Assembly: GCA_009778575.1 (NCBI GenBank)
Contig: WRJJ01000003.1
Location: forward strand, 1 to 64,000
DNA length: 64,000 nt
DNA from: Methanomassiliicoccaceae archaeon
GTDB taxonomy: Archaea > Thermoplasmatota > Thermoplasmata > Methanomassiliicoccales > Methanomethylophilaceae
Direction: 5' to 3'
This document shows positions 1-37,650 of this stretch, piece by piece. Under the pieces are notes generated by a model. It was given only the letters and a program-made list of their open reading frames with translations, had not been told where the DNA came from and did not search any database. The translations under genes and the position numbers were made by a program. The number at the start of each line of letters is the position of its first letter. Position 1 is the first letter of the stretch.

Positions 1-1950
1 TCCGGAATTACCGTCAGGTTGGCGTCGTCTCCGTCAGCGTAGGTCACGGTCACCGTTGTTCCAACAGGCACGAGTATGCCTTCGACGAATGTTGATCCGT
101 CGGCTCCTGCCGTCACGGTCAGGTTCCAGTGGTCTCCCGGCGTTGTCGTTGTGAAGAACGACTCCACAGCGTGGTCTGTATCCATGGTTATGATATAGGG
201 CGTGATGGCCAGTTTGTCAGCCGCGTCCAGGGTCCACTTCTGCAAGATGTGTCCCGAGGCGGGCGTCGCAGTCATGTTGGCATCGTCTCCGTCCGCGTAG
301 GTCACGTACGCAGTTGTTCCGGCAGGTACGAGAACTCCGTCGACGAAGGTCGAGCCGTTCATTCCCGCCGTAACGGTAAGGGTCCAATGACCTCCCGCTG
401 TTGTCGTTGTGAAGAACGAAACTGCCGCGTGGTCCGCGTCCATGGTTATGACGTATGGTGTTATGGCTGGTTTGTCAACCGTGTCCAGGGTCCACTTCTG
501 CAAGACATATCCGGAGGTTGTGGTCGCCGTCAGGTTGGCATTGTCTCCGTCCGCGTAGGTCACGGTCGCCGTTGTTCCAACAGGCACGAGTATGCCTTCA
601 ACGAACGTTGAACCGTTGGCTCCGGCTGTTACCGTCAGGTTCCAGTGGTCTCCGGGGTTGGAGGTCGTGAAGAACGATGCAACCGCATAGTCTGTATCCA
701 TGGTTATGACGTACGGAGTGATCGCTGCCTTGTCGGCACCGTCGAGTGTCCACTTATCGAATGCGAATCCCGAGTCCGGAGTTGCCGTCAGGTTGGCGGA
801 TGCTCCGTCAGCGTAGGTCACGTACGCAGTGGTTGTTGCGGGCACGAGTATGCCTTCAACGAATGTTGATCCGTCGGCTCCCGCCGTAACGGTGAGGGTC
901 CTGTGGTCTCCAGACGAGGATAACGTGAAGAACGACTCCACATCGTGGTCGGCGCCCATGGTTATGACGTATGGTGTGATCGCTGCCTTGTCGGCGGAGT
1001 CAAGTGTCCACTTCTGCAGGGCATATCCCGTTGCGGGGGTTGCCGTCATGGTGGCATCGTCTCCGTCCGCGTAGGTTACCGTTGCCGTTGATCCGGCAGG
1101 TACGAGAACTCCGTCGACGAAGGTCGAGCCATTCATTCCCGCCGTAACGGTGAGAATCCAGTGGTCTCCGGGGTTGGAGGTCGTGAAGAACGACACCGCC
1201 GTGTGGTCCGCATCCATGGTTATGACATAGGGCGTTATGGCCGGTTTGTCAACCGTGTCCAAGGTCCACTTATCGAACGCGAATCCCGAGTCCGGAATTA
1301 CCGTCAGGTTGGCGTCGTCTCCGTCAGCGTAGGTCACGGTCACCGTTGTTCCAACAGGCACGAGTATGCCTTCAACGAATGTTGATCCGTCGGCTCCCGC
1401 CGTAACGGTGAGGGTCCTGTGGTCTCCGGACGAGGATAACACGAAGAACGACTCCACATCGTGGTCGGCGCCCATGGTTATGACATATGGTGTGATCGCG
1501 GCTTTGTCAGCCGTGTCCATTACCCACTTCTGCAGTGCATATCCCGTTGCGGGGGTTGCCGTCATGGTGGCATCGTCTCCGTCCGCGTAGGTTACCGTTG
1601 CCGTTGATCCGGCGGGCACGAGAACTCCGTCGACGAAGGTCGAGCCGTTCGCTCCGGCCGTAACGGTGAGGATCCAGTGGTCTCCCGGCGTTGTCGTTGT
1701 GAAGAACGACACCGCCGTGTGGTCCGCGTCCATGGTTATGACATACGGCGTTATTGCCGGTTTGTCAACCGTGTCCAGGGTCCACTTCTGGAGCGCGTAT
1801 CCGCCGCTCGGGGTCACCGTCAGCGTTGCCGACGCTCCGTCCGCGTATGTGAACGATGCCGTCGTTCCCGCAGGCACTAGCACTCCGTCCGCATATGTGG
1901 AACCGTTGGCTCCCGCCGTAACGGTAAGTGTGTAGTAACTGCCGGTGACA
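1..1950 (-). repeat. Tandem 258-bp (86-residue) repeats inside the adhesin gene
   Basis: The anchor CCATGG occurs at 182, 440, 698, 956, 1214, 1472 and 1730, exactly 258 bp apart each time, so seven units carry no indel. Each encodes a divergent InlB B-repeat-like module with the signatures GSTFVxGxLVPxGTT, VTYADG, KWTLD and ITPYVITMxxDH. The array is a mosaic: 1-83 is identical to 1291-1373 (five units away), and 1021-1097 is identical to 1537-1613 (two units away), while adjacent units differ more. The array runs off the left edge. Confidence 0.95.
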
Positions 1951-7900: not shown

Positions 7901-10784
7901 TATAGATCACACCGCTTCCGCCGCCCGCGTTCACGCCTGTGTGGCTGAAGCCGCCGCCGATTCCCGCGCCGTTATTGCTGGTCGCGGTGATCGTGCCGCT
8001 GTTGATGGATATCACTCCGCCGTCTCCGCCGCCGATCGAGCCGCTGGAACTGGCTCCGCCGCCGATACCCGCGCCGTCTTGAGCGGTTGCGGTGATCGTG
8101 CCGCCTTCTATTGTGATGAAACCGCCGTGCTGAGTCGATGCGCCGCCGATGGCCGCACATTCGAGGTCGCTGGTCGTCACCGTCAGCGAATCGTCGCTGC
8201 TGCCGGGGTTGGTGTAGCTGTCTATTGTGATGGTTGCGACACCTGACAGACCGCTGTCGCCGGCGAGTATGCTGCCGTGGACATAGCTGTCGCCCTCAAT
8301 GAGCAATGTAATTTCCGCATCATTTTCGAGGATTATGCTGCCTATTAGGTCTATATCAGATATAATTAAGGTCAGAGATACGCCGCCCTCGATGAAGATC
8401 TCATTGAATATCGATGTCCCGTGCTTAGGTTCGCTGCCGGGACTGGCCAGCAGACCTGTCTGCTTTATGAGATAGGTATTGCCGTCCGCCGCCGATGAGA
8501 ACGTCAGAGTACGGTCGCCGATCACCGAGCCGCCCGGCGATCCGCCGAACTGAACACTGTACGGGCTCATTCCCGCTGATATTGTGTAGTCTGCCGTACT
8601 TGTGATGGTCTCGGACAGATCTATCACGTCTGTATAAGGTGAATCTGTCGTGAATGGCACCACGGGGCTGTAGAATGTGAAAGCTATCGATGATATCGTT
8701 ACTTCCAGGTACGTCTGCACGTAGTACGTTGTGCTCATTGAGAGCCCCGTCAGGTTCTCCGTTATCTGAGACGTGGTCCATGATGACCACGGAAGGTCTG
8801 TCACGGAAGAGTTCAGAGCGCCGTTGCCGTCCACCGAAGATGATGCGGAATAAAGGAATCCGCCGGCGACATAGTTGACCCCCGTCACTACATTCTGCCC
8901 GTTGCTGTTTATGTCAGCGGTGGTGTACAATATGTTGGACGCGCTCGGAGTACCGGGTACCGCGGTCATGAACCTGACCGGGAGGACCCCGTTGCCTGCG
9001 CTGCTGTTGTGAATATTATAATCTGTTAGTATGGACATAGAGTACGGATCGCCGTTATCGGAGTCGCGCACGACTATGCCCGTGTATGTTGTGCCGTTCG
9101 TAGCGTAGATACGGTCTATTGTGGAAGAACCGCCCGTGCTGTATGCGAAGCCTCTGAAGCCGCCGGGAAGATTAAGAATCGTTGGAGGGTTTGACATATT
9201 CTTGCCAATGAACGCTTCGAGCGTCACCGGTCCTCCCGATATCGCTGCGATCAAATTGGCGTTCGTAACGTATCCACCGCCGGAGATGTTGCCGGCAGCG
9301 TGGATAGCAGGAAGGGTTGTCCCCTGCGAATATGCTTTGACATCTGCTGTGCTGGAGATACTCAAAGATGTACCGACAACGAGACCGATCTGTGTTGGAG
9401 AGGAAGAACCAGCGCCTATACCGGCGCCTCCGCCGTTGCTGGTTGCAGTGACCTTTGCGTTTCCGGTCACGGTTAGACTGCCGCCTGCGCCACCCCTAAA
9501 AATTGATCCTCCAGAGACGCCTGCGCCGCCGCCGATACCAGCGCCTCCGCTGTTGCCTGTTGCAATAACAGTTGCGTTGTCTGTTATGATGACAGTGCCG
9601 CCGCTACCACCAAACGCTATGGCTGAAGGTTGACTGCCTGCGCCGCCGCCTATGCCTGCGGATCCACCGCCTGTTGCGGTCACGACTGCGTTACCGCTTA
9701 TAGTGATGTTGCCGCCGTCACCGCCGCCGGTGACCGTGCCATTTGCTGCGCTGCCGCCGCCGATGGCTGCGGCGCTTGTATTGCTGAGAGCATATCCTGA
9801 GCTCATAGTGGTCGCATTTACCACTGCATCGCCGCTGATATTGATCGTGCCGCCGGCACCGCCGGCACCGCTCAAGAGATATGTAAAGCCACCGCCGATA
9901 CCTGCGCCTCCGCGACCGGTCGCATTTACCACCGCATTGCCGCTGATATTGATCGTGCCGCCGTCACCGCCGCGGCCCCCGCTGCTGTATTGACTACCGC
10001 CGCCGCCGATGCCTGTGCCGTTGGAATTGCCGAGCGCATTCACAGTGCCGCCAGTAATAGTAATGTTGCCGCCGCTGCCTGCGGTTGCCGAGCTTGTACT
10101 ATTACCACCGCCGCCGATACCTGCGGCACCATAAAAGTGGGCGTTTGCATTCACGGTGCCGCCTTTGATAGTTATGTTACCTGCATCCATAATCCCAATG
10201 GCATTAGTAGCACCGCCGATGGCTGCGCCTTTGTTTGTAGCTCCTGACATAGAAAGCGTGCCATCGCTGCTGCCGGTGTTGGGGCTGGATGCACTGTCGA
10301 TGATGAGTGATGCGTTGGTCGGCACATAGATTTTTGTAAGTTCGTTGGTGCCGCTCAGAAGAAGAGTGACCGTTGCCCATGGTTCAATATGTATAGGGAA
10401 CTCAATGCCGGGCGATTCTCGGATACTGATGTTGTTCAGTGTCACCGTGGTGTTCACGCTGGCTTGGAATTGAATACTATAATAAAGGTTGTTGCCACCA
10501 GTTAGTTCATAACTATAGGAGTTTGCGTTTGTGTTGAAGACCAATATGTATGGGCTCACACCGGTGCCTGCACCGCTGAGCGTCCACCCGAGACCAGGGT
10601 TACTGGCAGGAGGTGAGGTCAGGTTGATCGTGTGGTCGGCCGCCGACGAGTCGTCGGAACCTCCCGGGACAAGCTGTACGACGGCGACAGACGCCATCAT
10701 TACTACTAGCGCAAGCACCGCATACATGAACAGGGCTTGCTTGCCGGATTTGTTCTTGACTATTCTTTTTATTTGTGTTTTCAT
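1..10784 (-). CDS. Giant adhesin-like surface protein (C-terminus beyond window)
   Basis: An ATG at 10784-10782 opens a frame with no stop down to position 1, giving at least 3,594 residues; the C-terminus is missing. Residues 1-40 are a basic start followed by a hydrophobic stretch (LFMYAVLALVVMMASVAVV), a secretion signal or anchor. Then: glycine-rich beta-helix block (about 179-466, repeated AGIGGG and GGxGGTINISGNA); a fibronectin-like stretch near 676-699; a second AGIGGG block (about 876-1019); a carboxypeptidase-regulatory-like domain (about 1166-1236); divergent InlB-type repeats (about 1242-1619); two large beta-solenoid blocks rich in NNxGTI (about 1632-2190 and 2191-2850); and at least seven 86-residue InlB-like repeats (about 2945 to the edge). 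The architecture matches adhesin-like proteins of gut methanogens. Role in attachment is inferred from family. Confidence 0.85.
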   Translation of the reverse strand, partial: MKTQIKRIVKNKSGKQALFMYAVLALVVMMASVAVVQLVPGGSDDSSAADHTINLTSPPASNPGLGWTLSGAGTGVSPYILVFNTNANSYSYELTGGNNLYYSIQFQASVNTTVTLNNISIRESPGIEFPIHIEPWATVTLLLSGTNELTKIYVPTNASLIIDSASSPNTGSSDGTLSMSGATNKGAAIGGATNAIGIMDAGNITIKGGTVNANAHFYGAAGIGGGGNSTSSATAGSGGNITITGGTVNALGNSNGTGIGGGGSQYSSGGRGGDGGTINISGNAVVNATGRGGAGIGGGFTYLLSGAGGAGGTINISGDAVVNATTMSSGYALSNTSAAAIGGGSAANGTVTGGGDGGNITISGNAVVTATGGGSAGIGGGAGSQPSAIAFGGSGGTVIITDNATVIATGNSGGAGIGGGAGVSGGSIFRGGAGGSLTVTGNAKVTATSNGGGAGIGAGSSSPTQIGLVVGTSLSISSTADVKAYSQGTTLPAIHAAGNISGGGYVTNANLIAAISGGPVTLEAFIGKNMSNPPTILNLPGGFRGFAYSTGGSSTIDRIYATNGTTYTGIVVRDSDNGDPYSMSILTDYNIHNSSAGNGVLPVRFMTAVPGTPSASNILYTTADINSNGQNVVTGVNYVAGGFLYSASSSVDGNGALNSSVTDLPWSSWTTSQITENLTGLSMSTTYYVQTYLEVTISSIAFTFYSPVVPFTTDSPYTDVIDLSETITSTADYTISAGMSPYSVQFGGSPGGSVIGDRTLTFSSAADGNTYLIKQTGLLASPGSEPKHGTSIFNEIFIEGGVSLTLIISDIDLIGSIILENDAEITLLIEGDSYVHGSILAGDSGLSGVATITIDSYTNPGSSDDSLTVTTSDLECAAIGGASTQHGGFITIEGGTITATAQDGAGIGGGASSSGSIGGGDGGVISINSGTITATSNNGAGIGGGFSHTGVNAGGGSGVIYIYDGTITATSKGGAGIGGGSASGGAGGGNGTIYIYDGTITASSGMSGYGANGAGIGFGGGTNGLLSGSIALTLNAEADVRAYAVDMPAIHISTVTGTGYFVNATLNTPIASSDTTMDVYANGTSTVIDTFTLPADFMSFAYSTGAAPARLDNIKAYDSSSTLLGTIVRVHDDSPVIGSITAMNGYNAYNGGVSDARLPVKLAVNVDISGTIYDNTTGTPVALGGVTVYYMIGSTTYSVLSNATTGEYEITVPSGSNVTITGLSKSGYIPYPVSQFPDALGTVSSDMSSVDYTMVEGYVINITVACYSIDDSDVDVLVGSTTYNITAPGGTVYVPKTITSITLTANEGTDYFESFYVAETSDYMYVNPTKVAVNSDLTIIAHFGIAAAPYIIDVTIVGDGIVILENYGRTCVVNVSPSKAYFPWTPEDNLFMTAVPATGMAFDHFDTSAGTNASNPFVKDIMDVTYVTAYFDDLSKYNVIEVTIYGDGSLTIDDVTYSRVVKNPDVSGPNVSYTSTVYVLKTVTSITITAVDITEKFERFDITVDPPSTTNRFDSYMNPTTVPISTDLLLDAYFEPSIASFYVLTVNIVGNGTVSVEDNLFGPHGTVYTSGTTINISNSVSDVTFTANNGTNYFEKFVVDTVTYSGYSNKVLNLPISANMAAEATFGPMTSIDYVAVDGSTQNYGGTFTVIDSAYFGSGNQTIPAGWYYVVEDVTVSGVLFINGDANIVIANNATLTVAGSGGSGLQVQTGNNLAIYSEPHTVAADIGKVEIQQNGIHFAGTPSNRTFINTAFIDGMVGMGNTIDSKAVNGVTGTIHSALIAPRDGIIISNSGTIHNYGLIIGTANGINVQGSGSGAVINNYAFPQFDPSDGSAFSAPYRGTISGVNDGIQLIANGTVSNHGTIVGTGPVGNGFGIYSNSTGVIINNHAGGVIQGDVGSGIRLGNGGTIGNSGTISSTSTSPNASGINSSVVAITVNNQPGGVIQGLNGLYLSAGGTVNNYGAITGSGTSSNTGAIYSSADCTILNYASGTVEGGNKAIHLGNGGMVVNFGDISGKHTTSYGIYLDAGGEVSNSSTISGVTQGIFASSTAVSTADAVILTNSGAIHGNVTLANAPNEITLTVDSLINGNFSTGTNPGTTLDFSGTLDPVDLTFATITGNSNIGTANVYVSFSAPPTSPPYTGADIILIDGSTVVGKTVTGTPKNPTYTVGGYTFSILVGSTGDQLIATLGIDYVEVNGSTSTHSGSTTVIDSTSSGITSLAAGWYYVTQNVTISSLTISGNVQIIIANGVTLTVTNGITVPTGSNLSVYSQPPAGGSGMGKLSMTGAAANNGINITGNNCTVINTASIESSRAVINGVGTGVKIVNGITGILKNAASNTTLYLSPGSTGTINNYGSIEAVNTVPISFGGVITVNNYAFPYFDPSDGSVFSAPYRGSIKGVSAGIILSSDSTGSVVHNYGDIEMTIASIGLYAAVSDGGGNTIYNHAGGVLEGVRAFRGSNESTLRSTLNNAGTITGGTISNACGVYFVYGGDLINSGTITGGIGVYGNFNSHSYIDNSGTITGTGSRGIDISCSLDNTGTITGQQEAVRISVPVAGSVVNNSGTITAVASGSWAMSIHATNAVGSGNATINNSAGGVIKGTERGLSILTEGTRSTTVNNYGEIEGTSGVFPTSSGIYVFDRVSPVVTITNYSGGSVKGGSCGVYLGVPGTIVNNGDISGMIVSSFGIYLLAGGSVTNNNTIGGAAGSNEAFGIYGESDTVPTTLVNNGSIYGNVTLGNAENDITFVVNSLIVGNFTPGGYDGTRLKFAGDLDLATTPFTYAKVTGTSTIGINVYVSFDGSGLPTGYAGEDLVLIDGSGGGAVGGASKNPTYITSGYGYFIETKGGNQLVATTGYIVEVTFVGDGTVQVISGSDGTTVLGSVSGTTGDTEAVVVRKSVGSILLKAIPDSTPTQYYFEQFEIDGGAPSIINPTSTAISANMEVTVTFVTGSYYTLTVTAGANGSTYADGVLVPAGTTASFTYADGASATLTVTPSGGYALQKWTLDTVDKPAITPYVITMDADHTAVSFFTTTTPGDHWILTVTAGANGSTFVDGVLVPAGSTATVTYADGDDATMTATPATGYALQKWVMDTADKAAITPYVITMGADHDVESFFVLSSSGDHRTLTVTAGADGSTFVEGILVPVGTTVTVTYADGDDANLTVIPDSGFAFDKWTLDTVDKPAITPYVITMDADHTAVSFFTTSNPGDHWILTVTAGMNGSTFVDGVLVPAGSTATVTYADGDDATMTATPATGYALQKWTLDSADKAAITPYVITMGADHDVESFFTLSSSGDHRTLTVTAGADGSTFVEGILVPATTTAYVTYADGASANLTATPDSGFAFDKWTLDGADKAAITPYVITMDTDYAVASFFTTSNPGDHWNLTVTAGANGSTFVEGILVPVGTTATVTYADGDNANLTATTTSGYVLQKWTLDTVDKPAITPYVITMDADHAAVSFFTTTTAGGHWTLTVTAGMNGSTFVDGVLVPAGTTAYVTYADGDDANMTATPASGHILQKWTLDAADKLAITPYIITMDTDHAVESFFTTTTPGDHWNLTVTAGADGSTFVEGILVPVGTTVTVTYADGDDANLTVIP
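2225..5890 (-). repeat. Large internal duplication of the adhesin beta-solenoid block
   Basis: Two long blocks share the same order of motifs. Each begins with IDYVxVxGST (around 5889 and 4212, 1,677 bp apart), continues with AAGWYYV or PAGWYYV, a run of NNxGTI turns, the conserved segment YAFPxFDPSDGSxFSAPYRG, and ends with a NPTY/LIDGS segment and the word QLVAT or QLIAT. The match is at protein level; nucleotide identity is high only locally, for example around 3580-3650 and 5255-5325. Confidence 0.75.
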
Positions 10785-13351: not shown

Positions 13352-14209
13352 ATGAGGAACAAGCTCCTGCTGGTGTCATTCGTGGTCTCTCTGTTGGTAC
13401 TGACAGTATCATTTACGTCAGCAGATGCGGAAGACCCCGTCAGCCTTTCCAACTATTACGTCGAAGGTTTTGTGGCCGATACCGGCAGGGTGCCCATGGA
13501 AGGAGTGACCGTTTCCGTCATGGACAGGAACGGTACCGTCTTCCACGGCGAAACGAACGGCAGCGGATTCTTCAGCGTGGGGATCGCTACCAACTCCGGC
13601 CTCATGATCTCTTTCACGACTTTCGGATACTCCATGGTGACGTGCCCCAACACGACCTTCCCTCCGGGTTCCGAATATATGTCCATTAATCTTTCCGGGG
13701 TCAAGTACAACAGCGCGACCCGCACGTACACATTGACGGGAACGATCGAGGATATGCAGTGCGCGATAATGAAAACTTCCGACGGGACCGTAAGGGGGCA
13801 GGTGACCTTCGGAACGACCCCCGTCAAGAATGCCACCGTTACCCTTGTACCGGTCAACGGCGAGGGGACGTATTCGTCGCATACCGGCGACAGCGGACAC
13901 TATGAGATCGTATGCCCCACCGGAACGTATACTTTAACGGCGGGCAGCCAGGGCTTCAACCAAAGCGATGCCTTCCAGGTAAACGTGACCGGAAGCCCGT
14001 CAACGGTCAACGTCACATTGGTGAAGAGCGAGCTGAAGAAACATCTGGGTCTGGATATGGCGCACGTACTGATGCTGGTGGGCGCGATAGTCGGCATATT
14101 GCTTGCGGTCGCCGCATGGTTCATCGGCAGACGCATGAACGGATCCAACAGCCTCGAGATAATCGACGACAGCGTTCCCGAAGAGGACGACGATGTCAGA
14201 CGTCCCTGA
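13352..14209 (+). CDS. Membrane-anchored surface protein with carboxypeptidase-regulatory-like domains
   Basis: 285 residues. Signal peptide at 1-26 (KLLLVSFVVSLLVLTVSF), an extracellular part with two CarboxypepD_reg-like beta-sandwich units (about 33-110, with VEGFVADTGRVPMEGVTVSV; about 144-225, with VRGQVTFGTTPVKNATVTLV), one transmembrane helix (about 239-262) and a short acidic cytoplasmic tail. Such Ig-like folds decorate archaeal surface proteins; no enzymatic motif is present. A TATA-like GATATTAAAT lies about 25 bp before the ATG, suggesting a nearly leaderless message. Its end overlaps the 3' end of the convergent fumarase beta gene by 14 bp. Confidence 0.75.
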   Translation: MRNKLLLVSFVVSLLVLTVSFTSADAEDPVSLSNYYVEGFVADTGRVPMEGVTVSVMDRNGTVFHGETNGSGFFSVGIATNSGLMISFTTFGYSMVTCPNTTFPPGSEYMSINLSGVKYNSATRTYTLTGTIEDMQCAIMKTSDGTVRGQVTFGTTPVKNATVTLVPVNGEGTYSSHTGDSGHYEIVCPTGTYTLTAGSQGFNQSDAFQVNVTGSPSTVNVTLVKSELKKHLGLDMAHVLMLVGAIVGILLAVAAWFIGRRMNGSNSLEIIDDSVPEEDDDVRRP

Positions 14210-14762
14210 TGAGCCTTTTTCTTACGTTATCGTAAAGGCTGCCGCCCTCCGAGTCCATTGCCACCGTGAGGGGTCCCATCCTTTCCACCTTTAATATCCA
14301 CATCGCCTCGGCCATGCCCAGGTCCTCCCATTCTGCGCCTTGGACCTCGACCACCGATTCCGCTATGGAGACCGCGGTCCCTCCCACCGCCGCAAGATAA
14401 ACGCAGCCTGCCTCCCGCATGGCATCCCCCACTTTCTCCGACATCCCGCCTTTTCCGATTACCGCCCGTATCCCGAACCTCTTTATCATCTCCGGTCCCA
14501 AGAGATCCATCCTTGAGCTGGTGGTGGGGCCGGCGGCCACCGTTCTCCACCTGCCGCCTTCTTTGACCATGATCGGGCCGCAGTGGAAGAGGATCGAATT
14601 CTCAAGTCCTTCCGGTATCGGCTTTCCCCCGCGGGCGTATTCGACCGCCCTCATGTGCATCTCGTCCCTCCCCGTTACCACTTCGCCCGTAAGGTATACC
14701 GTGTCCCCTGCCCTGAGTTCCCTTACGGCCTTCTCGCTGAGAGGCGTCCTCAATTCCCTCAC
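14196..14762 (-). CDS. Fumarate hydratase class I, beta subunit (or tartrate dehydratase-type)
   Basis: 188 residues from a GTG at 14762 that overlaps the alpha-subunit stop (GTGA), giving VRELRTPLSEKAVRELRAGD, the canonical beta-subunit start. Further family marks: GRDEMHMRA, FHCGPIMV, AAGPTTSSRMD and GKGGM. In two-subunit archaeal class I fumarases this chain forms the C-terminal domain that completes the active site over the [4Fe-4S] cluster of the alpha subunit. Longer frames upstream exist but run through the alpha gene. It interconverts fumarate and malate, probably in an incomplete citric acid cycle supplying biosynthesis. Confidence 0.9.
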   Translation of the reverse strand: MRELRTPLSEKAVRELRAGDTVYLTGEVVTGRDEMHMRAVEYARGGKPIPEGLENSILFHCGPIMVKEGGRWRTVAAGPTTSSRMDLLGPEMIKRFGIRAVIGKGGMSEKVGDAMREAGCVYLAAVGGTAVSIAESVVEVQGAEWEDLGMAEAMWILKVERMGPLTVAMDSEGGSLYDNVRKRLIRDV

Positions 14763-15628
14763 AGGTCCGCCCCCTGTTCGTATTCTATACCTGTTTCGGT
14801 TATGCGCGCCACCGCCCTTCTGGTGGCCCAGCATCCTATGCTCACCGCGACCGGAAGGCTTGCCGTGTGGCAGCATGCGGCCTTTATCTTCACTCCGAGG
14901 ACCGTGGTCGATCCCCCCAGCCCCATGGGCCCGAGGCCGCTCCCGTTCAGTTTGACGAACAAGTCTTCTTCCATCTCTTTCAGAACGGGGTCGCCGTTCT
15001 CTCTGTCAAGGGGGGACATCAGCGCCCGCTTCGACATCGCCACGCACTCATCCGCGGTGCCGCCGATGCCGACCCCGATCACGCCCGGCGGACAGGGCCT
15101 TCCTCCGGCATCCAGGACCGAGTCGACAATGAATCTTTTTATCCCCTCTATTCCGTCCGAAGGGTTCAGCATGGCCGATCGCGTCATATTCTCCGAACCC
15201 GCCCCTTTGATAAGAACGGCGATCTCAAGGAAGTTGTCATCGGTCGGGATGTAATGTATTGAGGGCATGCCTTCTCCGAGGTTGTCTCCCAAGTTCTTTC
15301 TTGTAAGCGGGTCGACCGTATTGGGTCTCAGAGGGACCGTTTCGGTGGCGGCCCTTATCCCTTTGATAATATCATTTCTGATGGACGCGTCGAACCTCCC
15401 CTTCACATAGAAAGTGGGTATCCCCGTATCCTGGCACATCGGACGTCCCAAGACCTCCGCTTTCTTCACGTTATCCATTATCGCCCCGAGCTGAGTCCTC
15501 GCCAGGGGATCCGATTCCCAGCCGGCGGCGGCCTCCAGAGCCCAGCCGATGTCCGGCGGGAGCTTTGTGTTGGCCGCTTTCAGAAGATTCGCCACCACGC
15601 GGTCGATGGGCTCAGGCAGTTTTATCAT
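14759..15628 (-). CDS. Fumarate hydratase class I, alpha subunit
   Basis: 289 residues from the ATG at 15628 (MIKLPEPIDRVVANLLKAAN), the usual length; a further upstream ATG (15805) would add a non-conserved extension. The iron-sulfur cysteines are visible in MCQDTGIP, in GGTADECV and in the AACCHTASLPVAVSIGCWA segment. Substrate-binding motifs KGAGSENMTRSAML and GIGGTAD are intact. It is the first gene of a two-gene operon with the beta subunit. The family also contains L(+)-tartrate dehydratase; fumarase is the likelier activity in an archaeon. Confidence 0.9.
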   Translation of the reverse strand: MIKLPEPIDRVVANLLKAANTKLPPDIGWALEAAAGWESDPLARTQLGAIMDNVKKAEVLGRPMCQDTGIPTFYVKGRFDASIRNDIIKGIRAATETVPLRPNTVDPLTRKNLGDNLGEGMPSIHYIPTDDNFLEIAVLIKGAGSENMTRSAMLNPSDGIEGIKRFIVDSVLDAGGRPCPPGVIGVGIGGTADECVAMSKRALMSPLDRENGDPVLKEMEEDLFVKLNGSGLGPMGLGGSTTVLGVKIKAACCHTASLPVAVSIGCWATRRAVARITETGIEYEQGADL

Positions 15629-15804
15629 AACGCCTCTACGACATTTTGCAAATAAAGGTTCTTCGCAGTTTTGCGCCGTGAGTTGAGAGGGATACGCCTC
15701 GGACGATCGTGCGCCGTTTTGCATCGTTCTCTCATGTTCTCGGATCCAACGGAGCAGTATATGCATCCAGAAAACGCACTGGAAAAATAGTGTAGCCCTC
15801 GTCA

Positions 15805-15873
15805 AAAACTTACCAAATAGGGAAATGAAAACTTACCAAATAGGGAAATGAAAACTTACCAAATAGGGAAATG
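15805..15873 (+). repeat. Three perfect 23-bp tandem repeats upstream of a DUF4143 ATPase gene
   Basis: Unit boundaries are 15805-15827, 15828-15850 and 15851-15873; each begins AAAACTTACCAAATAGGG and ends AAATG, with no mismatch. The array ends about 42 bp before the GTG of the downstream ATPase gene. The position fits an operator. The other DUF4143 gene in the window has a 23-bp-period direct repeat in the equivalent place with a different sequence. Confidence 0.95.
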
Positions 15874-15914
15874 ATATGCCACTTTTCAATAAGTTAAAAT
15901 AACCATATGATGTT

Positions 15915-17186
15915 GTGAATGTAGTGAAAAGAAAATATCTGGACAGAATTGTAGATAGAGAGTTGGACCGAGCTCTTGAGTCTTCCGGCGCGGTATTAAT
16001 CAAGGGCCCCAAATGGTGCGGAAAAACACGTACCGCAGAAGAGCGGGCCGCCAGCAAAATATTGATGCAGGATCCGAATAACACAGAACATTACAAGATG
16101 ATCGCGGACAGCGCGCCCAGCCTTCTTCTGGAGGGTGACGTACCGAGGCTGATCGACGAGTGGCAGATAGCCCCCGTTCTATGGAATGGTGTGCGTTTCG
16201 AAGTGGATCAGCGCGGAGAGAACGGACAATTCATACTCACCGGTTCCGTCACGCCGAAGAATGACCCCACGCTACACACCGGAACAGGGCGCATAACGCG
16301 CCTGTTCATGCGCACAATGACACTGTTCGAATCTCTCGAATCCAGCGGAGAGGTCTCACTGAGAACATTGTTCAACGGAGAGGCCGACATCAAAGGCAGA
16401 TCGCCGCTTACGATCGACGGTCTTGCCTTTGCGTTGGCCAGAGGCGGGTGGCCCCGCTCTGTGGGCGAAAAAGAATCCATAGCTCTGCGTCGTGCGTACG
16501 ATTACGTGGATTCTTTGGCGGAGACCGAGATCTCCAGTTCCGACGGCGTGGAGCGGAACCCCGCCCGCATCCGTAATCTCATGCGGTCTCTGGCAAGGAA
16601 TGTATCTACGGCGGCAAAACTGACAACGATCAGGGAAGATATGGAGGGGGACGACATCATATCTGACAAGACCGTAACATCTTACATAAATGCGCTCAGA
16701 CGCATGTCCGTGGTCGAAGACCTGCCTGCCTGGTGTCCGGCTGTGCGTTCCAAGACCGCTATAAGAACATCCCCCAAACGTCATTTCGTTGACCCATCCA
16801 TTGCAGTCGCGGTCCTCCGTATGTCGCCGGAAGGGTTGCTGAAAGATTTCAAAACGTTCGGTCTGCTGTTTGAATCGCTGTGCGTGCGGGACCTTAGGGT
16901 ATACGCACAGGCAATGGACGGAGAAGTGTTCCACTACCGCGACAGGAGCGGTCTGGAAGCGGATGCGATCGTACACCTTAAGGACGGCCGGTGGGGTGCC
17001 GTTGAAATAAAGACCGGCGCCAAAGAAACGGAAAAGGCCGCCGAGAACCTGATAAAATTAAAGGACAGGATCGACACGGAAAGGATGACCCCGCCGTCTT
17101 TCCTCATGGTGCTGACGGCATCGGAATATGCATACCGCCGCAGGGACGGCGTATATGTAGTGCCTATCGGGTGTTTGAGGGACTGA
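15915..17186 (+). CDS. DUF4143/AAA_14-type ATPase with C-terminal nuclease-like domain
   Basis: 423 residues from GTG 15915; GTG 15924 is an equally possible start. Walker A is GPKWCGKT (residues 31-38), a Walker B-like strand is VPRLIDEWQ (about 76-84), and FILTGS (about 105-110) is the sensor-like segment typical of this family. The C-terminal DUF4143 part has a PD-(D/E)xK-like signature: GLEADAIV, then GAVEIKTG (about 361-363 onward). Function of the family is poorly known; such proteins are common in host-associated microbes and have been discussed as regulators or defence/selfish elements. It is paralogous to the gene at 36385-37650 and stands alone, convergent with nmd3. Confidence 0.8.
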   Translation: MNVVKRKYLDRIVDRELDRALESSGAVLIKGPKWCGKTRTAEERAASKILMQDPNNTEHYKMIADSAPSLLLEGDVPRLIDEWQIAPVLWNGVRFEVDQRGENGQFILTGSVTPKNDPTLHTGTGRITRLFMRTMTLFESLESSGEVSLRTLFNGEADIKGRSPLTIDGLAFALARGGWPRSVGEKESIALRRAYDYVDSLAETEISSSDGVERNPARIRNLMRSLARNVSTAAKLTTIREDMEGDDIISDKTVTSYINALRRMSVVEDLPAWCPAVRSKTAIRTSPKRHFVDPSIAVAVLRMSPEGLLKDFKTFGLLFESLCVRDLRVYAQAMDGEVFHYRDRSGLEADAIVHLKDGRWGAVEIKTGAKETEKAAENLIKLKDRIDTERMTPPSFLMVLTASEYAYRRRDGVYVVPIGCLRD

Positions 17187-17218
17187 AACCAACGCACCGG
17201 GATGATGCCGAACTGCGC

Positions 17219-18247
17219 TCACGGCACGTAGTAGAGGATGTTGTCTATCTCCGCCACTTTCACGGTGTCGCCTATCTCCGCGCCGTCGGGGACATTCAGG
17301 TCCGCGGTGGAATAGTTCGACGGATCAAGTATTTGGATCTCCCCCTTCCCTTTGCTCACCACCACCGCCTCCCGCAGGTCCTCCGCACGCTCGTGCACCT
17401 TGAAGGAAGGCATATCCGACCTTTTGACCGCTCTTTCTCTGAAGTTCATAAGGTCGATCACTTTAGCTCCGCTGCCTGACACCCTGGTCAGTTTGAAGTA
17501 TCGGCCCTCGAACAGTATCACGTCCCCGGCGTGGAAGTCCGGGAGCCTTACAAGATAGGTTATCCTGTACATCCCCTGGCCGTCGTCCGTCTGCCCCACA
17601 AGTTTGAATGCTTCCTTCGTCTCGGCGCAGTATGCGTCGGCCAGGTCCTTCGCGGCCGCTTTCCCCAGGGAAATGGAGGACAAGTAGACATCTATCCCTC
17701 CCTGCACCTCCTCCGACTTCGTTATGAAGAGCTGCCTGTTGTGAACGGAGTTCGCATCGACCAGATTCTCGACCCTGTTCAGCGCCTCCCGCACCGTCCC
17801 GTGGGGAACGTTCTTGGGATCCGCCCTTATCTGCAGGATCGCTTCGTAATAGTTGCCAAGCTGTCTGGAACATCTTTTGCATACTGTGTTCTTTATCCTT
17901 ACTATCGTGGATGCCGAATCCTCGGCGGCATGACCGCCGATATCAAGCAGAGCGTCCACCGTCACCGCGTACGTATACGGTTCCTGTTCGACCGACGATG
18001 CTTCGGTGCGGACGACCTTTGCCTCTTTGATCGGAACGACGGATCTCTTCGCCGCTTCCTCTATCGCTTCCGGGAGATCCTTCGTCACCCATGACTCTCC
18101 GCGCCCGATATCCCCGCAGTTCGCGCAGACGTTCAGATCGACGTGGTGCGGAAGGGACATCAGCTTCCTTCCGTCAAGGAAACAGGCGGCGCACAGGCCG
18201 CCCATGGTCTGCTCGGCCTCTTCCCCGCACTTTACACAGAAGTTCAC
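17219..18247 (-). CDS. nmd3: Nmd3-family ribosome biogenesis protein
   Basis: 342 residues. The N-terminus carries the paired zinc-binding CxxC motifs of Nmd3: CVKCGEE, CAACF, CANCGD, and CKRCS at about 137-140. The rest matches archaeal Nmd3 (IQIRADPKNVP-like region, GIDVYLSSISLGKAAAKDLA and a C-terminal small-beta segment). In eukaryotes Nmd3 adapts the 60S subunit for export; in archaea it is presumed to act in large-subunit maturation. Its ATG overlaps the stop of the DUF424 gene (18244-18247), so it is the last gene of an operon with DUF424, MCM and a wHTH protein. Confidence 0.88.
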   Translation of the reverse strand: MNFCVKCGEEAEQTMGGLCAACFLDGRKLMSLPHHVDLNVCANCGDIGRGESWVTKDLPEAIEEAAKRSVVPIKEAKVVRTEASSVEQEPYTYAVTVDALLDIGGHAAEDSASTIVRIKNTVCKRCSRQLGNYYEAILQIRADPKNVPHGTVREALNRVENLVDANSVHNRQLFITKSEEVQGGIDVYLSSISLGKAAAKDLADAYCAETKEAFKLVGQTDDGQGMYRITYLVRLPDFHAGDVILFEGRYFKLTRVSGSGAKVIDLMNFRERAVKRSDMPSFKVHERAEDLREAVVVSKGKGEIQILDPSNYSTADLNVPDGAEIGDTVKVAEIDNILYYVP

Positions 18248-18537
18248 ATTATCACCACTTGGGCGTGCTTCACCTCTCCGATGACCATCACGCTGTTCTC
18301 GGAGACAAGCCCCTCCTTCACCGCCCTGTCCACCACGCGGTTTCCCACCAGGTTCATTATCGTTACCGATCTGGTCCTTTCCACGAATACGTCCTCGGAC
18401 ACCAGTTCCCCTCCGTAAAAGGTCTCCGACACCTTTATCTTTGCACCGTTCCCTCTGAACGTCATCCCCAGGATCTCTTGGTCGCAGGCGGCCAATATCC
18501 TCTCCTTCTCATGAACGTGGATCTTGCAGTGTATCAT
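18244..18537 (-). CDS. DUF424 family protein
   Basis: 97 residues, MIHCKIHVHEKERILAACDQ onward, with the conserved FRGNGAKIKVSETFYGGE segment and a hydrophobic end (SVMVIGEVKHAQVVIM). DUF424 is an archaeal family of unknown function, often found next to nmd3 or translation genes. Here it overlaps the nmd3 start by four bases and follows the MCM stop by one base, so all three are cotranscribed. No catalytic motif is visible. Confidence 0.8.
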   Translation of the reverse strand: MIHCKIHVHEKERILAACDQEILGMTFRGNGAKIKVSETFYGGELVSEDVFVERTRSVTIMNLVGNRVVDRAVKEGLVSENSVMVIGEVKHAQVVIM

Positions 18538-18538
18538 T

Positions 18539-20647
18539 TTATGCCTTCCTGTAAACGCCGTTGCGGGGGCAGAACAATTCGCCGGTCTCGTCCAGACTCT
18601 TAAGCAGTTTCTTGGTCTTGCTTTCCGAGAGCCCGTCGCTCAGAGCATACCCCACTATCTCTTCCTCCGACAATCCTTCTGCGGTTCCGTATCTTTTGAA
18701 AATATCCAATACGATCGTCATTTCGTTGCGGTCCTTCTTTGTGAAATTCGATGACAGGTTGTCTATGTCCCACTGCCCCCCTTCGGGGGCCAGTATCCTG
18801 CTCAGATAATATTCCACAAGCTTCACCGCCCGCTTCGCATCCTCTTCTTCGACGACGCGGCTGAGCCTCATCCTCGCCGATGCTTCCGACAGCCTCACAT
18901 ACGCTTCGAGCTGCCTTGCGGTGATCGGCACGGAATCGTTCTCCCCCGCACCCATGGCCCTTATTGATAGATAGTTATCTTCGATCATCTTCGTGGCCGC
19001 ATCCGTCATCACCGGCACGATGCGCTTCGAGTACGCCACATATTTCCTGAGTATCTCCTGCTCATACACGGGTTTTACGTTCCGCGTATCGTCCCTGATC
19101 TTCTTGATGTCCACACCCACGACCAACGGCGCATCTTCCGCTATTTGTCTGGCCTGACCCCTTCTGTGAACGCTGAGGATATGTTCCGTCAGTTCCCTGT
19201 CCGCCTTCGGGTCCGGCTTGTCCGTCATAACGAATATGAGGTCAAAACGGGACATTAGCGCCGGAGGAAGGTCTATCTGATTGGTTATGGACATGCCTGC
19301 CGTCTCGAACCTCCCGAACTTTGGATTGGCTGCCGCAAGCATGGAACACCTGCACTGAAGGGTTGCGGTTATCCCGGCCTTTGCGACGGATATCCTCTGG
19401 GATTCCATCGCCTCATGCAGCGACGATCGGTCCTGAGGCGTCATTTTGTCCAACTCGTCAATGCACGCAAGACCCTTGTCCGCAAGGACGAGGGCCCCGG
19501 CCTCCAGGGTCCATCTCCCGTCGCCGAACTCGTCCTTCACCGCGGCGGCCGTCAGGCCCGCCGCCGATGCGGATTTGCCGGATGCATATATGCCTCTCGG
19601 GGCAAGCGCGCTCATGTATCTCAGTATCTGGGACTTCGCGACACCGGGATCTCCCACGAGGAGCACGTGCATGTCTCCCCTTATCACGGTGCCGTCGTCC
19701 ATCTCCTTGTTGCACCCGCCGAACAGCTGCAGGGCAATGGCGCTCTTGACCTCCGCCATGCCGTGGATCGTTGGAGAGATGGATGCGGATATGTTATCGT
19801 AGAGCTTCGGGTCCTTTGCCATCTCCAGTATGCGGAACTCGTCCTCCTCCGTTATCTGTATCTCGTCGTACTCGTGCTCCTCGAACTCCACCGACAGAAC
19901 GTCCATGAATATCTCGAAGACGGTTGTTTTATCTCTTTCCTGTTTCTCGGAGGACCTTATTATTCCGTTGATCGTTATTCTGTTGCCGGCGGTTATTATC
20001 CCGGCTATGTCGTCCTCGACGAAACCCGTTATCCTTTCCGGCTGCGCCCCGCCTCTCAGTCCTTCCGGGCTTTCCTGGATCTCGATCTTCTGCGTATCCA
20101 CGAAAACGGATGCCTTTGCGTCAAGATCGAAACGCGTCGCCTGCTTGTTGCAGCTGCCGTCGGGGTTCGAGCACATCTGAGGCTCCCTCATGACCACGCC
20201 CCTCTGGTTCTCCCACATCTCCGCTCCGCATCTGCTGCACCTGAAGAGCGCCCTGGTCATCCTCGGCCTCACGGTGGTCGCCTTCCTTGCGAGACCTTCC
20301 ACCGCAACGAGCTTTCCGAGATGCTTGGCCCTGAGCTGCCTTACCTCCACTTTGGCATCGCGCGGAAGGTTGGTTATCCTCAGATTAACTGCATCGTTCG
20401 CATCCCAAGTCGGCGGGAGCGAGGCCTTTACCACCTCTTTTCCTTTGCTCAGGCATCTGTCGGGGTTGTCCAAGAAGAACATAGCCAGATCGGTATTGTA
20501 TGCGTCTATGTCCTCGTACGGGACATAGACGCTCCGTTTCTCGGGATAGCTTGCCGCTATGTCGGCGAACAGCAGGCGGTATTTGTCCTTGCCGAAGATC
20601 TCCTCCCACCCCGCAATTATCTCGCTGTCCTGAAAACTTACCGCCAT
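18539..20647 (-). CDS. mcm: Replicative helicase MCM
   Basis: 702 residues. Domain A and the OB-fold fill about 1-270, with a zinc site C137-C140-C159-C166. The AAA+ core has Walker A GDPGVAKS (332-339), Walker B LACIDELDKM, sensor 1 AAANP and the arginine finger in LMSRFDL. The C-terminal winged helix ends with RNGVYRKA. It unwinds DNA 3' to 5' as a hexamer at the fork. No intein. Operon order is wHTH, mcm, DUF424, nmd3. It lies about 22 kb from the putative origin near orc1. Confidence 0.97.
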   Translation of the reverse strand: MAVSFQDSEIIAGWEEIFGKDKYRLLFADIAASYPEKRSVYVPYEDIDAYNTDLAMFFLDNPDRCLSKGKEVVKASLPPTWDANDAVNLRITNLPRDAKVEVRQLRAKHLGKLVAVEGLARKATTVRPRMTRALFRCSRCGAEMWENQRGVVMREPQMCSNPDGSCNKQATRFDLDAKASVFVDTQKIEIQESPEGLRGGAQPERITGFVEDDIAGIITAGNRITINGIIRSSEKQERDKTTVFEIFMDVLSVEFEEHEYDEIQITEEDEFRILEMAKDPKLYDNISASISPTIHGMAEVKSAIALQLFGGCNKEMDDGTVIRGDMHVLLVGDPGVAKSQILRYMSALAPRGIYASGKSASAAGLTAAAVKDEFGDGRWTLEAGALVLADKGLACIDELDKMTPQDRSSLHEAMESQRISVAKAGITATLQCRCSMLAAANPKFGRFETAGMSITNQIDLPPALMSRFDLIFVMTDKPDPKADRELTEHILSVHRRGQARQIAEDAPLVVGVDIKKIRDDTRNVKPVYEQEILRKYVAYSKRIVPVMTDAATKMIEDNYLSIRAMGAGENDSVPITARQLEAYVRLSEASARMRLSRVVEEEDAKRAVKLVEYYLSRILAPEGGQWDIDNLSSNFTKKDRNEMTIVLDIFKRYGTAEGLSEEEIVGYALSDGLSESKTKKLLKSLDETGELFCPRNGVYRKA

Positions 20648-36384: not shown

Positions 36385-37650
36385 TCAATCCTTCAAACAG
36401 CCTATCGGCACAACGTATACGCCGTCACTGCGTCTGTATCCGAACTCCGTTGCCGTAAGCACCATAAGGAATGACGGTTCGCCCATCTTTTCCGTGTTCA
36501 CCTTATTTCTGAATTTCTTAAGGCTCTCGGCCGCTTTGTCTATTTCTCCGGCCCCCATCTTTATCTCCGCGGCACCCCACCTTCCATCATATAGATTCAC
36601 GACGGCATCCACTTCAAGGCCGCTTCCGTCATGGTAATGATAAACTTCGCCATCCAGCGCCTGAGCGTATACCCTGAGGTCCCTGACACATAATGATTCG
36701 AATAACAGGCCGAATGTGGTGAAGTCCTTGAACAGACCTTCCGGCGATATATTCAGTACGGCGGCCGCGATCGAAGGATCTACAAAGTGAAGTTTCGGAG
36801 ATGTCCGCTGAGCGGTCTTGGGACGAATGGAGGGGCCCCACGCCGGCTGCTCCTCTATCACAAATATCCGCCGTAGCGCATTCATGTATGCCGCTATCGT
36901 TCTGTCGGATACCGCGCCGTCCGCATCGTCCCCCGCTATATCGTCCACGATCGTCTTCATTTTTGCCATTGATGATGTGTTCCTAGCCAACGAACGCATC
37001 AGCCTTCGTACTCGCTTCGGATTCTTTTCCACACCGTCAACGCGCGATATGTCAGCGTTTATCACCATTTCCACATAGTCGCGCACGTGCCGTAAAGAGG
37101 ATGGGCCGCCGTCTATGACCGATGCCGGCCACCCTCCCCTTACCAATGCGTATGCGAGTTTTTCGACCGATAGCGGTGATATCCCTCTTATGTCGCCGCC
37201 GTTGAAAAGTGATGCCAACGAAATGTCGCCGTTGGACTCCAACGATTCGAACAGCGTCATTGGGCGCAGCAGCATCCTTGAGAATCTTCCTGTGCCGGTG
37301 TGCATTGTCGCATTATCGAGCGATACCGCTGAACCCGTCAGTATGAACTGTCCGGGTATTCCGCGCTGATCTACCTCAAAACGTACGCCGTCCCACAGAA
37401 GAGGTATTGTCTGCCATTCGTCAATGAGGCGCGGTGTGTCCCCCTTGAGCAGAATATCGGGTGCGATCTCCGCGGCTTGGAGGTAATCCTTCCTCTTTCT
37501 GACATCCTGAAGATATATCGTGCTTGCCGCCCGTTCTGCGGCTGTTCTCGTTTTGCCGCACCATTTGGGCCCTTCGATAAGCACCGCACCGGTTGTTCTG
37601 AGAGCGGTCTCCAGTTCCTTGTCCGCTATCCTACTGAGATAATGGCCCAT
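36385..37650 (-). CDS. DUF4143/AAA_14-type ATPase, second copy
   Basis: 421 residues, clearly paralogous to the gene at 15915-17186: Walker A GPKWCGKT, LIDEWQTIPLLWDGVRFEVD, FILTGS, and the C-terminal GLEVDAVVNLYDGRWGAAEI with KMGAGE. Both end VYVVPIGCLxD. The start MGHYLSRIADKELETAL at 37650 is supported by alignment to the paralogue. It stands alone, with a 23-bp-period direct repeat upstream. Role unknown; the nuclease-like C-terminus suggests nucleic acid transactions. Confidence 0.82.
   Translation of the reverse strand: MGHYLSRIADKELETALRTTGAVLIEGPKWCGKTRTAAERAASTIYLQDVRKRKDYLQAAEIAPDILLKGDTPRLIDEWQTIPLLWDGVRFEVDQRGIPGQFILTGSAVSLDNATMHTGTGRFSRMLLRPMTLFESLESNGDISLASLFNGGDIRGISPLSVEKLAYALVRGGWPASVIDGGPSSLRHVRDYVEMVINADISRVDGVEKNPKRVRRLMRSLARNTSSMAKMKTIVDDIAGDDADGAVSDRTIAAYMNALRRIFVIEEQPAWGPSIRPKTAQRTSPKLHFVDPSIAAAVLNISPEGLFKDFTTFGLLFESLCVRDLRVYAQALDGEVYHYHDGSGLEVDAVVNLYDGRWGAAEIKMGAGEIDKAAESLKKFRNKVNTEKMGEPSFLMVLTATEFGYRRSDGVYVVPIGCLKD

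Follow-up and report, generated by a model that had tools for sequence, protein, structure and literature searches.

Exchange of sequence between the repeat units of a giant archaeal surface protein is real, as judged from the units themselves. The reading that we favour, and consider likely, is that these units arose by tandem duplication and were then subject to frequent in-register gene conversion in short tracts (~50-90 bp) within the expressed array. The DNA analysed here (the window, 64 kb) is the beginning of contig C3 of a 1.29-Mb MAG (G000; 90 contigs, 92.6% complete). Archaeal marker genes were recognised (MCM, PriS, ORC1, DNA polymerase II small subunit, V-type ATP synthase and CDC48), and the DNA polymerase II small subunit shares 81-86% identity with those of Candidatus Methanoplasma and Methanomassiliicoccaceae MAGs, including Methanoplasma glyptotermitis. 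The host is a gut-dwelling, methane-making archaeon resembling Candidatus Methanoplasma. Searches for RNA families and tRNA found none within the window.

Table 1. Features of the window discussed in the text (positions of the whole stretch).
Feature	Positions	Strand	Remarks
Gene for the giant surface protein (3594 aa or more), 3' end lost at contig start	3..10784	-	Open frame, ATG at 10784; Flg_new_2 match
N-terminal hydrophobic segment (residues 1-48), probable signal peptide or signal anchor	10641..10784	-	Read off the translation alone
Repeat unit U1 (258 bp, 86 aa)	1671..1928	-	
Repeat unit U2	1413..1670	-	92% identical to U4
Repeat unit U3	1155..1412	-	Mosaic: parts nearest U8/U6, U5 and U1
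Repeat unit U4	897..1154	-	
Repeat unit U5	639..896	-	83% identical to U3
Repeat unit U6	381..638	-	
Repeat unit U7	123..380	-	Mosaic: first part nearest U4/U2, later part nearest U6 and U1
Partial repeat unit U8	3..122	-	Cut at contig start
83-bp run identical to 1291-1373	1..83		Exact identity; at contig end
77-bp run identical to 1537-1613 (U4/U2)	1021..1097		Exact identity
71-bp run identical to 1357-1427	841..911		Exact identity; over the U4/U5 border
Aligned offset-516 exact runs (with 1157-1727)	641..1211		Probable trace of a two-unit duplication step, from run positions
Flank common to relatives (CarboxypepD_reg gene, fumarase, NMD3, MCM)	13352..20647		Served to locate the syntenic orthologue

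In a profile search the giant protein matched Flg_new_2 (PF18998, divergent InlB B-repeat) over seven stretches, at 40.5 bits against a curated cut-off of 23.6, while its match to Beta_helix_3 stayed below the cut-off. A CCL2-like Pfam match on the repeats was set aside as cross-matching. The structure model of two consecutive units is confident and all-beta (pLDDT 94, pTM 0.85); when it was submitted to Foldseek every match had a low TM, streptococcal PitA chains ranking at the top and InlB reaching E = 0.13 and TM 0.28, and a sequence search of the PDB returned weak matches only (CCL2 lectin, E = 0.04; Lmo1340, E = 0.8). The array is best explained as the C-terminal, stalk-like part of the giant surface protein, composed of Flg_new_2 domains, and its architecture suggests that it may act as a spacer or adhesive stalk. 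The C-terminus of the C3 gene itself falls beyond the contig end. Giant surface proteins of the genus often terminate in a membrane helix followed by a β-rich tail of ~70 aa (L064:6535-6864, G000:C5 and homologues). This combination occurs in 17 of 17 genomes of the genus, in up to 12 copies each, and in no genome among 44 others from the family and order; the tail is modelled by AlphaFold with a pLDDT of 89, has no Pfam match over its length and found no convincing fold match in the PDB.

The syntenic orthologue in the related genome G005, which adjoins the same CarboxypepD_reg/fumarase/NMD3/MCM block, is likewise cut by a contig start, before its repeats, so that the two species cannot be compared here in number of units. 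G007 and G013 gave no match at the corresponding locus, and no relatives emerged from a scan of genome contigs with the repeat protein as query. The idea that the surface-protein fragments on C3 and C5 are halves of a single gene was ruled out by synteny. Contig ends lie inside giant surface-protein genes on C3, C5, C22, C23 and C45 of the source genome, as well as on G005:C2 and G002:C16, and such genes therefore appear to break assemblies. A 23-bp tandem repeat occurs in three perfect copies at 15805-15874, with the fumarase gene on one side and a DUF4143 ATPase gene on the other; the window holds two DUF4143/AAA_14 ATPase genes (15915-17186 and 36385-37650).

The last 642 residues of the protein divide into seven complete units of 86 residues plus a partial one of 40, encoded at positions 3-1928 in strict 258-bp register (Tandem Repeats Finder: 11-1925, period 258, 7.4 copies). 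Eight LTVTAG starts lie exactly 86 residues apart on the minus strand, and a self-comparison of positions 1-1950 yielded 73% identity at offset 258, 73-80% at its multiples (~80% at 516 and 1290) and 20-30% at neighbouring offsets. The indel-free spacing of anchors at 258 bp that the sequence-only reading had described is thus borne out, also by the dot-plot type of check that it had proposed, and the 83-bp and 77-bp runs that it quoted are exact. All 15 exact runs of at least 25 bp fall at multiples of 258; for the 83-bp run, chance would give ~4e-6 per pairing at 80% mean identity with randomly scattered differences. Position 1 of the window is base 1 of the contig, so this run touches the contig edge and the copies counted are a minimum. 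Runs do join non-adjacent units, as had been stated, although much of this signal comes from a single, nearly unbroken stretch at offset 516, that is, a two-unit step: given the pairing of U2 with U4 and of U3 with U5, together with the aligned runs, part of the non-adjacent linkage probably represents two-unit duplication. Such a duplication step is probable, on these run positions, in the history of the array.

Exchange is supported by three tests with controls. A GENECONV-like permutation singled out several pairs whose shared runs are significantly long (for example U1/U7, P = 0.0002, and U3/U5, P = 0.0006), PHI gave a significant result whether all sites or third positions alone were used (P = 0.0005), and the association between third positions was 0.31 at 3-9 bp and had dropped to 0.05 by 36-60 bp, a decay that persists when the units are cut at another phase. 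Painting in sixty-base segments revealed single units (for example U3 and U7) composed of parts nearest different partners, and the patches shared between units are mostly 10-40 bp long.

Could the units instead be the product of an old duplication followed by divergence without exchange, their shared runs reflecting conserved motifs and codon preference? Identity between units is 0.74 for amino acids and 0.60 for third positions, as selection conserving motifs would produce. However, third positions match at 0.595 where codon usage predicts 0.390, and the decay with distance is retained at codons for invariant amino acids (P = 0.007 in the C3 array; 0.002 and 0.016 in two arrays of G005). Distance dependence was absent from 11 orthologues of the DNA polymerase II small subunit with a comparable third-position identity, 0.53 (P = 0.57), and from 15 old, diverged units of a paralogue in the same genome (P = 0.17). 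Divergence without exchange is in the main refuted by these results and is very improbable. The excess of amino-acid over third-position identity also suggests that the protein sequence is conserved rather than diversifying, and leaves the proposal that the repeats serve antigen-type variation without support. Nor is there support for the proposals that exchange is ongoing and that array length varies rapidly, adjacent units being only 73% identical. Since the named relatives include a termite-associated MAG and arthropods are not known to have antibodies, antigenic variation would be a poor guess.

The same decay was significant in all seven testable arrays (at least five in-register units, from the fetched loci of the genus), which come from four genomes of the genus, with P values up to 0.016: G000:C3, G005:C5, G002:C16, two stretches of G005:C1, G003:C12 and G000:C22. 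In G000:C22 the unit measures 336 bp and is of another domain type, so that at least two domain types display it overall; in one array with n = 4 the decay was not significant. Arrays of yeeJ (E. coli), Halorussus and Alistipes were too diverged or had too few units for use as comparators in the tract-length test. Units resemble one another far more closely inside an array than across arrays. This is so also at the syntenic G000:C5/G005:C5 locus, where unit identity is 0.94 and 0.79 within species and 0.47 between them, which indicates that arrays have been amplified or homogenised separately in each lineage.

Because the C3 array lies at a contig end, other surface-protein genes of the genome are cut likewise, and runs of 71-83 bp could confuse small k-mers, its mosaic structure might have been manufactured by short-read misjoining or by mixed strains. 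Assemblers usually finish with k-mers longer than 10-40 bp, however, and most of the shared patches are therefore below the usual final size. The C3 frame is moreover open throughout, from 10784 to 3 on the minus strand, and the same decay is found in the G005:C1 array, which is internal to a 648-kb contig, in a genome assembled into 7 contigs, and has an intact 5434-aa frame. We consider an assembly artefact improbable.

Of the arrays found, that of G005:C1 is the longest and the most suitable for work on tract length; its open frame (L084:8773-15941) contains ~27 units of 270 bp, one of them with a 5-codon deletion. In the simulations third positions were taken as neutral, rates as uniform and the process as stationary. 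For 15 contiguous units of the 27, in-register conversion with tracts of 24-90 bp matched the observed decay (rmse 0.035-0.061), whereas crossing-over with steps of 1-8 units never gave the low association observed at 36-99 bp (244-271 samples per setting). Adding a few per cent of unit steps to conversion was compatible with the data. For the C3 array the best fit was obtained with simulated tracts of 48-90 bp; this array, having no more than seven complete units, speaks only weakly against crossing-over alone (P about 0.02-0.04), and the excess identity at a distance of two units is rare under pure 48-bp conversion (P about 0.03), so that block duplication steps are called for too.

These simulations bear on the view that whole-unit unequal crossing-over is the main force and that the mosaicism consists of its junctions. 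U2/U4 and U3/U5 do pair two units apart, with identity at distance 2 exceeding that at distance 1; steps of up to 2 or 4 units reproduce the two-unit pattern in about 20-24% of simulations, and the few per cent of such steps tolerated by G005:C1 would allow the process a part. Under crossing-over alone, on the other hand, the association stays high over 100 bp, never as low as in G005:C1, and adjacent units of the C3 array are no more than 73% identical in DNA. Within the simulated models, whole-unit unequal crossing-over alone is excluded for G005:C1, and as the dominant force it seems unlikely. The earlier suggestion of unequal exchange or gene conversion accordingly holds for its second half, since conversion in short tracts fits; unequal exchange by itself does not stand for G005:C1. 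Gene conversion would thus be the process behind the mosaicism. In the history that we favour, units would have been born by tandem duplication, one step of which probably spanned two units, and would then have co-evolved through frequent conversion in the same expressed array.

The gene content of these archaea suggests how diverged units might recombine. MutS (PF00488) was found in none of 10 genomes of the genus, family and order (within G000-G036) and in 11 of 14 control genomes; NucS (PF01939) reached the cut-off in none of the same taxonomic set (0/10) and in seven controls, the NucS of S. acidocaldarius being detected as a positive control. RadA is present in 10 of 10. Recombination between sequences that are not identical becomes more frequent when NucS is lost, as it does on loss of canonical mismatch repair (PMC5290159), and Sulfolobus acidocaldarius, which is without MutSL, undergoes short-patch conversion (PMC4471258, citing Mao and Grogan 2012). 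By contrast, conversion extends ~500 nt each way at the tuf genes of Salmonella (PMC5485169), and sites 600 bp apart in Haloferax volcanii are converted together nearly every time (PMC8223754). We infer that RadA may carry out the conversion and that missing mismatch repair, through the absence of both MutS and NucS, may be what permits exchange between units ~25% diverged. The Sulfolobus system resembles the present one in being an archaeon without MutSL with short tracts, discontinuous in S. acidocaldarius; it differs in that conversion was experimental, between transformed DNA and the chromosome rather than among tandem units, and in that NucS is present.

Short unanchored patches, with an inferred tract length in the range of the C3 array, also characterise vlsE of Borrelia burgdorferi (median minimum 5 nt, median maximum 89 nt; PMC2632889), where silent cassettes donate to an expressed gene. 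An analogous dedicated variation system, in which the expressed array receives segments from silent donors elsewhere by gene conversion, would share this tract length, but donor copies or a second locus were not found in the assembled genome (92.6% complete), all units lie within one open frame, and the protein is conserved, with no known immune selection. Such a source of variation is extremely improbable here, exchange inside the expressed array being the reading that we retain. Periscope Proteins, bacterial proteins with stalks of high-identity tandem domains (PMC8201768, PMC9704523), share with the C3 protein a tandem array of folded domains in a stalk-like position. Their repeat number changes by recombination between highly identical repeats, whereas the C3 array is archaeal, its units are 66-94% identical in amino acids and patch exchange is dominant; 'archaea' occurs in neither of the two texts and 'gene conversion' is absent from the review. 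Related repeat families, the Listeria-Bacteroides repeat and adhesin-like proteins, have been proposed as gut adhesion factors of Methanomassiliicoccales (PMC7883539), a paper that in its available part compares gene counts, not repeat evolution.

The usual account of repeat surface proteins is one of whole-unit recombination that alters length; here the dominant fingerprint is much finer, with patches of ~50-90 bp passing between units in which roughly one base in four differs. That the genus as a whole, with no detectable MutS or NucS, continually re-shuffles the expressed arrays of its giant surface proteins by short-patch conversion among their own diverged units, without silent cassettes, is a possibility that we put forward tentatively. 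If true, the arrays would be natural recorders of archaeal conversion-tract length, and the tracts of uncultured archaea could be measured from sequence alone. It would also make it possible to test whether the lack of mismatch-repair proteins and exchange among diverged repeats are connected.
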